Shown here: in pieces, positions 2,762 to 3,202 of the stretch | Numbering within the stretch: the stretch's first letter is position 1 | Layout of the letters: the number at the start of each line of letters is the position of its first letter | NCBI RefSeq assembly: GCF_026013545.1 | Contig: NZ_JAPDOG010000007.1 | Coordinates: forward strand, 124,001-188,000 | DNA length: 64,000 nt | Reading direction: 5' to 3' | Source of the DNA: Defluviimonas salinarum | GTDB lineage: Bacteria > Pseudomonadota > Alphaproteobacteria > Rhodobacterales > Rhodobacteraceae | Translations under genes and position numbers: made by a program | Notes under the pieces: model-generated | Database searches by the model: none | The model's input: the letters and a program-made list of their open reading frames with translations, nothing else | Told to the model about the DNA's origin: nothing

Positions 2762-2790
2762 TTGCCGGGATCTGCCAGATGTTCTACATT
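2762..2790 (+). promoter_or_regulatory. Candidate sigma-70 promoter giving a leaderless transcript
   Basis: TTGCCG (2762-2767) and TACATT (2785-2790) are separated by exactly 17 bp and each match the consensus at 4 of 6 positions. Initiation about 7-8 bases after the -10 box falls on the A of the ATG at 2798. There is no Shine-Dalgarno sequence before that ATG, which fits a leaderless mRNA. This is inference from spacing and consensus. Confidence 0.5.
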
Positions 2791-2795
2791 TGTTC
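2781..2795 (+). promoter_or_regulatory. LexA (SOS) box, GTTC-N7-GTTC
   Basis: GTTCTACATTTGTTC is an exact match to the alphaproteobacterial LexA-binding motif GTTC-N7-GTTC. It overlaps the candidate -10 box, the ideal position for repression, and ends two bases before the start codon of the OB-fold gene at 2798. Confidence 0.85.
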
Positions 2796-2797
2796 CC

Positions 2798-3202
2798 ATG
2801 CTTACCGATTACCATCCGTTTGAGGACTGGCCGCGCCCGCCCGCCGCCCTGCCCCATGCGCGGCTCAACGAGCCGCCCTCCGGCGCGCGGGTAACGGTGG
2901 CCGGGCTGGTGCTGGTGCGGCAGCGGCCCGGCACCGCGAAGGGGGTGGTCTTCCTCACGCTCGAGGACGAGACGGGCGTCGCCAATGTCGTCGTCTGGGC
3001 CAAGGTCTTCCAGCGCTTCCGCCGCGCGGTGATCGCCGGGCGGCTCCTGCGCGTGACCGGGCGGCTGCAGCGCGAGGCCGAGGTGGTCCATGTCGTGGCC
3101 GAGGCGATCGAGGACATCACGCCGATGCTCGACGAGCTGCTCGCCGCGCCCGGCGCGCCGGCGCGCCGGGCCGAGGCGGCGCGGGCCGACGGGCGGCCGT
3201 GA
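2798..3202 (+). CDS. Stand-alone OB-fold protein resembling the DnaE2/ImuC C-terminal domain
   Basis: This 134-residue protein consists of a short N-terminal tail, an OB-fold (about residues 31-108) and an Ala/Arg-rich tail. The core [20 protein letters not shown] followed by [13 protein letters not shown] and [19 protein letters not shown] closely resembles the C-terminal OB domain of the error-prone polymerase DnaE2 (ImuC). No polymerase, PHP or HhH segment precedes it. The start is chosen because ATG 2798 follows the SOS box and candidate promoter directly. It may be a DNA- or protein-binding accessory of the SOS mutasome, or a domain left from a lost dnaE2; the intact frame and perfect LexA box favour a working gene. 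Confidence 0.75.

Follow-up and report, generated by a model that had tools for sequence, protein, structure and literature searches.

Our analysis makes it likely that a gene in the window, by which we mean the whole 64-kb stretch of DNA that was analysed, encodes one of the four proteins of an SOS mutasome and that this protein is the OB domain of the polymerase DnaE2, detached and working in trans. At the level of sequence, comparison across genomes establishes the homology of this protein with DnaE2, its complementarity with a truncated DnaE2 core, the reciprocity with which the two occur, the grouping of the truncated cores in one clade, the LexA-type boxes at the loci and the selection on the gene. 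ImuA-ImuB-DnaE2 mutasomes are known from Caulobacter, Mycobacterium and Pseudomonas. The split form described here shares their three protein families and their LexA-type boxes but differs in that its genes are scattered and do not form one cassette, DnaE2 consists of two proteins, ImuB carries an insertion of about 45 residues and the RDFH-type tail is gone.

The gene occupies positions 2798 to 3202 of the forward strand, encodes 134 amino acids and was recognised from its frame and from Pfam and NCBIfam profiles as a stand-alone DnaE2 OB-domain gene, probably leaderless. A preliminary description of this DNA had seen a perfect LexA box lying over a candidate –10 element and ending two bases short of ATG 2798, and the sequence confirms it. 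The LexA (SOS) box GTTC-N7-GTTC (GTTCTACATTTGTTC, 2781–2795, forward strand), which is conserved in the OB loci of relatives, contains the candidate –10 hexamer TACATT (2785–2790, forward strand), and a spacer of 17 bases separates this hexamer from the candidate –35 hexamer TTGCCG (2762–2767, forward strand), both hexamers being assigned from sequence. Among the relatives' OB loci, box offset 4 is T in 24/25 and offset 5 is A in 24/25, and a hexamer starting with TT is found 16–18 bases from the –10 element in 19/25 under a loose rule. The gap between the box and the first ATG is 1–3 bases in 24 of the 25 boxed OB loci, a geometry that fits the leaderless mRNA proposed at the outset, and a Shine-Dalgarno-like motif, sought between box start and ATG, is absent from 24 of the 25. 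Taken together, the short gap and the missing motif make a leaderless OB mRNA likely. An in-frame ATG at 2684 was considered as the start of the gene and is unlikely because the sequence 5' of 2798 is not conserved. Purifying selection acts on the gene, as judged from a median pN/pS of 0.195 (45 pairs from 10 same-genus genes). Matches to GTTC-N7-GTTC in the window number two, against a chance expectation of 1.75; the second perfect match, at 4430–4444 on the reverse strand, lies inside a LysR-type gene and is probably due to chance.

The window protein matches the DnaE2 profile NF004225 (PRK05672) with an E value of 1.3e-32 over positions 944–1040 of 1047, and its 112.9 bits lie under the 939-bit cut-off of that profile; by this measure it is part of a DnaE2 and not a DnaE2. 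Profiles of the DnaE1 type give E values of 9.5e-08 or weaker, scores that disfavour an OB protein directed at DnaE1. The Pfam OB family PF01336 matches residues 32–107 (E 7.3e-13), and with NF004225 it bears out the resemblance to the C-terminal OB domain of DnaE2 that had first been noticed. The protein falls outside the SSB family PF00436, scoring 16 bits against a Pfam cut-off of 26. Pfam, an AlphaFold2 model and fold matches in the PDB assign an OB fold to residues 31–107 (2888–3118, forward strand). The model has a mean pLDDT of 82.9, with residue blocks across 21–110 at 84–96, and its best structural matches in the PDB are OB domains of aminoacyl-tRNA synthetase, Stn1 and RPA/PolD type; a sequence search against solved structures returned weak matches (best E 0.054). 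The N-terminal extension holds a WPRPP motif at codons 11–15 (2828–2842, forward strand), a candidate docking peptide by virtue of its conservation: [WL]PxPP occurs near the N-terminus in 26/26 stand-alone OB proteins, with W in 25.

A search of the contigs of the same genome with the DnaE2 profile found three places, namely a DnaE1-type polymerase, the window gene and a DnaE2 core on contig C78. This core has 948 residues, scores 1236.9 bits over profile positions 6–941 (5–942 in the genome search) and stops 7 residues past the profile match; polymerase-core, finger and HhH domains are present, the polymerase-core and finger domains well above their Pfam cut-offs. Since the core covers about 5–942 and the OB protein 944–1040, one DnaE2 is divided between two proteins with no overlap. 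The window gene is, by this complementarity, the gene for the OB domain missing from the genome's own DnaE2. A genome search for imuA, imuB and dnaE2 with comparison of their OB domain had been proposed, and it found all three, scattered (imuB on contig C12, imuA at C67:54688, dnaE2 on C78), with a dnaE2 lacking the OB domain. The ImuA match covers a 156-residue piece and stays below the family cut-off (35.9 of 150 bits); for ImuB, the matches are to general Y-family models alone. The OB module had been described as independent, which holds insofar as it is a separate gene with its own box, and does not hold insofar as it was thought of as an extra to a complete polymerase, the genome's DnaE2 stopping at about 941–942.

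The truncated DnaE2 and the separate OB protein occur together. Among 22 genomes of the genus, 12 encode a stand-alone OB protein and all 12 of these have a truncated DnaE2, the core of G017 being in two frames. None of the other 10 same-genus genomes encodes a stand-alone OB protein, and their DnaE2 extends into or through the OB domain; the match ends at 984 in G004, an incomplete assembly, and is in pieces in G007. In the family, probably Rhodobacteraceae in the sense of GTDB, 147 genomes were tabulated (159 sampled, less 12 with a fragmentary DnaE2), of which 60 have a truncated DnaE2 and a stand-alone OB protein, 2 the truncated DnaE2 alone, 1 the OB protein alone and 84 neither. The Fisher p value for this table is 1e-37, which overstates the evidence because species are not independent and co-occurrence is partly shared descent. 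Separate OB proteins are missing from 67/68 genomes with a fused DnaE2; the exception, G055, has the fused and the split system side by side, both of them complete. A truncated DnaE2 stands without a detectable OB protein in G104 and G124, and G111 keeps OB and ImuB and has no DnaE2; with the fragmentary G158 and G202, these genomes indicate that the parts are not strictly inseparable. Outside the family, the OB query matched 23 of 40 genomes of the same class. Every matching frame is longer than 1000 residues; a stand-alone OB protein was therefore not seen in this sample. Thirteen stand-alone loci come from named records, 11 of them with titles of Rhodobacterales type, such as Rhodovulum tesquicola (L038) and Rhodobacter sp. 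Har01 (L043); L054 is titled Proteobacteria only and L034 Exiguobacterium. The L034 record (CP059262.1), titled as an Exiguobacterium profundum MAG, encodes a stand-alone OB protein of the Rhodobacterales type, and its title is probably wrong.

These counts depend on how incomplete genes were scored. Genomes set aside for a fragmentary DnaE2 were G138, G215, G202, G158, G218, G128, G041, G151, G155, G121, G178 and G184, the DnaE2 pieces of the last three having been revealed by a renewed search of 14 doubtful genomes; dropping the first nine only gives 60/2/3/85 in 150 genomes, with a Fisher p of 1.5e-35. A stand-alone OB protein is found in four of the twelve (G128, G218, G121 and G178). No OB protein was found in G158 and G202, whose DnaE2 pieces end at 941 and 971 and whose assemblies are both 84% complete, or in G184, which has a 57-position piece of the DnaE2 start alone. 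OB pieces at contig edges (G041, G151, G155, G215 and G138) were judged by eye and not scored as stand-alone. DnaE2 matches in the family were listed from at least about 608 bits, so some other genome scored as lacking DnaE2 may hold a fragment. Two apparent split cases were rejected. In G030, dnaE2 is cut off by the end of contig C2 (217,585 bases), at whose start the OB domain and an RDFH tail are found; most likely a fused dnaE2 spans the start of the record, and the genome was scored as fused. In G145, initially taken as truncated, the OB domain sits within the same 1129-residue frame, and this genome was also scored as fused. Alignment A1 has 45 rows; from the 53 references, L034, which holds an X, a false stretch of L039 and some near-duplicates were omitted.

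A LexA-type box precedes each of the four genes in nearly all split genomes. A perfect GTTC-N7-GTTC lies upstream in 25/26 of the relatives' stand-alone OB loci (the exception is L027/G034), so that frame and box are both conserved in close relatives, as the first reading had required. A second set of 13 stand-alone OB loci, which shares some loci with the first and leaves out L046 with its odd frame, has a perfect box in 11, the exceptions being L037 and L041. Both half-sites are invariant across the 12 same-genus OB loci, while the preceding 60 bases have mean pairwise identities of 0.30 and 0.42. The bare pattern has 121 matches in the window's own genome against 73 for the reversed control; a single copy is therefore weak evidence, and the case rests on conservation. 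Eleven box loci were picked by eye from the 121, and four of them stand before recA, lexA (two overlapping boxes), uvrA and imuB, with no SOS gene recognised downstream of the remaining seven. Perfect boxes before these four genes identify the motif as the LexA site of this genome, in agreement with its earlier assignment as the alphaproteobacterial LexA box. In the split genomes, a LexA-type box precedes imuB in all 19 genes located from 21 loci (ImuB of G022 and G047 was missed by the motif search and is outside the 19) and in 4/5 further genomes, G124 lacking a perfect box; it precedes imuA in 19/20, with no perfect box in G003. Upstream of the dnaE2 core, all 24 readable regions have a box, 6 of them perfect and 18 with one mismatch (GAAC-N7-GAAT), the window's own genome being among the 18; no position could be assigned to the dnaE2 start in G033. 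GAAC-N7-GAAT occurs 22 times in 476,028 strand-bases of the same loci, those 18 included. By eye, GACTCGACTC was also seen 5' of the imuB box in many split genomes (L238–L257), and GACTC 5' of the dnaE2 box in many (L144–L161); these are perhaps a –35 element or the site of a second regulator.

The split most simply goes back to a single cut of dnaE2, at the linker that joins the (HhH)2 region to the OB domain, to judge from the tree of the polymerase cores. Built without the OB domain (63 rows), this tree places 25 split cores and the odd MAG G053 on one branch with an SH-aLRT of 100; the fused enzyme of G025 is the weakly placed sister of this clade, and the remaining fused enzymes from the family are placed apart from it, among other alphaproteobacterial cassettes. 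The OB gene is too short for its own tree to speak to a single origin, which is seen in 12% of bootstrap trees. G025 (L282, L297) may represent the step preceding the cut: its DnaE2 is still fused, a perfect box, GAACATAATGCGAAC, standing just upstream, and its ImuB, encoded on a different contig, has a perfect box as well, GTTCATGTTATGTTC. In G053 and G150, distant and seemingly AT-rich genomes (L220, L221, L286 and L287), we also observed a truncated DnaE2 with a separate, diverged OB protein, a perfect box near the likely OB start and an ImuB-like gene still close to the core.

Gene order differs between the two forms. In 16/18 fused loci, imuB precedes dnaE2 in the same orientation; the exceptions are G037, with a divergent imuB, and G043, whose imuB is downstream of dnaE2 and oppositely oriented. 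The split genomes have imuA, imuB, dnaE2 and OB at separate loci, as can be read from single contigs in G014, G033 and G054; on the one 4.17-Mb contig of G014, imuA is at 3000214, imuB at 756185, dnaE2 at 403512 and OB at 1407063. About 4 kb separate imuA and imuB in G001 and G002. No ImuB match was found around the dnaE2 core, within the retrieved stretch, in 24/25 split loci, and G051 has a divergent imuB. The OB locus itself is orthologous, since a ferredoxin gene adjoins the OB gene on the opposite strand, within the 1.5-kb flank, in 23/26 loci. In the window this synteny anchor, a 2Fe-2S ferredoxin gene outside the system, lies at 1705–2028 on the reverse strand (Pfam Fer2, E 5.3e-14). 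The best ferredoxin match is kept in same-genus species with a fused cassette, and no OB gene lies within 1.5 kb of it in 7/7. In G000 and G001 the ferredoxin and OB genes are separated by a sulfotransferase-family gene (Pfam PF17784; 2146–2754 in the window), and the distance between the two genes is shorter in most relatives than in these genomes.

Three further features separate the split from the fused form. Split cores end in an LxP motif in 25/25 cases. The ImuB of the split clade (L238–L257, L218) has a conserved insertion, about 45 residues long, of the QEARATR type at its core and resembling GDAIDQEARATRSRAxKRHWxRGG, in 19/19 aligned sequences, and this insertion is missing from the four canonical ImuBs aligned alongside, that of G025 included. 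The fused enzymes end in a C-terminal peptide, [SGP]R[DN]F[HQR], found in 50/50 scored frames from L045–L113, in 18/18 fused frames at the level of the family and in 11/13 at the level of the class (L114–L128), where L120 ends in SRDFK and L128 is without the peptide; the scoring omits loci whose OB domain escaped the motif search. This tail is present in 0/25 split cores and 0/26 stand-alone OB proteins. In the predicted structure of the fused DnaE2 of L062 (mean pLDDT 81.4), a short linker after residue 969 leads to the OB domain, and the prediction of the linker to the tail is poor.

We infer from this pattern that the OB protein associates with the DnaE2 core or ImuB and that the system is induced by DNA damage. 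Upon damage LexA would leave the boxes, and ImuA, ImuB, the DnaE2 core and the OB protein would be made together, the OB protein being translated from a short, probably leaderless transcript. It would then rejoin the core, ImuB or both in trans and provide a grip on single-stranded DNA at the lesion. Candidate contacts are the WPxPP N-terminus of the OB protein, the LxP motif in which the core now ends, and the ImuB insertion. According to an AlphaFold model of the mycobacterial mutasome, DnaE2 meets ImuB primarily through its PHP and (HhH)2 regions (PMC12926913). In the available part of that text the OB domain is not named as an ImuB interface, and it would therefore be the part most easily cut free. 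We advance more tentatively, as a possibility that we would not yet favour, a version in which OB is a detachable and separately dosed subunit whose WPxPP arm docks on the QEARATR-type insertion of ImuB or on the core's LxP end and so stands in for the lost RDFH-type tail, with the LexA-set level of OB tuning processivity and mutagenesis.

Other readings of the same genes have to be weighed against a subunit that acts in trans. The protein could be a free, SOS-induced single-strand-DNA binder of DnaE2 ancestry that makes no contact with DnaE2 and protects or marks gaps, or has ImuB as its only partner. Such a protein would suit G111, with OB and ImuB and no DnaE2, and G104 and G124, with a core and no detectable OB, and general binding of nucleic acids is a property of such OB folds, as the PDB matches illustrate. 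Against it, the OB protein accompanies 60/62 truncated DnaE2s, is missing from 67/68 fused-DnaE2 genomes and is not found at the ferredoxin anchor in any of the seven same-genus species with a fused cassette; we regard this reading as rather unlikely. A competitor or brake, sitting on the DNA or at the ImuB site and so limiting the translesion polymerase, is decidedly improbable. Its own LexA-type promoter would permit separate timing, but the polymerase of the split genomes has no OB domain of its own to compete with, and 67 of the 68 genomes with a fused DnaE2 manage without the protein. The suggestion in the preliminary description that the protein may block the polymerase loses ground for the same reason, the genome's own DnaE2 ending at profile position 941–942 without an OB domain.

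The two genes could instead be decaying remnants of a broken cassette, and the core of G017, in two frames, and the loss of one part in each of G104, G124 and G111 have the look of decay. Against this, one clade of cores has been kept across many genera, the OB gene has a median pN/pS of 0.195, the half-sites of its promoter are invariant in the genus, and the polymerase-core and finger domains of the window genome's DnaE2 score well above the Pfam cut-offs, which leaves decay very improbable. Joining of the two parts after translation by a split intein has a precedent in the split DnaE genes of cyanobacteria, but no intein family is among the Pfam and NCBIfam matches of the OB protein or the core, and there is no room for intein halves because only about 30 residues precede the OB fold and the core continues for just 7 residues beyond its profile match; we give this mechanism almost no credence. 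A separate OB subunit that rejoins the DnaE2 machinery in trans is thus the reading we prefer.

In the split DnaE of cyanobacteria, a C-family polymerase is assembled from two distant genes by a trans-splicing intein. The present system also has a C-family polymerase in two distant genes but differs in that the cut is in a domain linker, the genes have SOS-type boxes and there is no extension of intein length. That a separate OB protein can serve a polymerase is a known principle (Stn1-Ten1, RPA); the fold of the small OB subunits of RPA and CST is alike, whereas the sequence homology here is to the OB domain of DnaE2 itself. Several DnaE2 sequences without an OB domain were reported by Timinskas et al. 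(PMC3919608), and, in the part of that paper available, a separate OB gene is not mentioned in connection with them; the letters RDFH and DFH are absent from its main text. Another work describes 11 types of DnaE2/PolY multi-subunit mutasomes with AlphaFold complex models, among them a split ImuB made of an inactive PolY and a separate ImuB-C (PMC12926913); the phrase 'OB domain' is absent from the accessible text, which describes neither an OB subunit nor a split DnaE2. An imuA-imuB-dnaE2 cassette is carried on a Dinoroseobacter plasmid (PMC9426580), and predicted LexA sites have been named in D. shibae (PMC6473078). The accessible portions of these two papers and of PMC3765255 contain no description of a separate DnaE2 OB subunit, nor does the rest of the literature searched, as far as its available text goes, which accords with the earlier view that this protein is not a described mutasome part.

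The function of the DnaE2 OB domain is hard to test in fused enzymes, and here nature has made the cut and kept the parts separate through many genera. In a split system, OB alone can be deleted, titrated or swapped and induced mutagenesis read out. Surveys that score an OB-less DnaE2 as domain loss may also be affected: in this family, the OB domain is encoded elsewhere in 60 of the 62 genomes whose truncated DnaE2 is intact.
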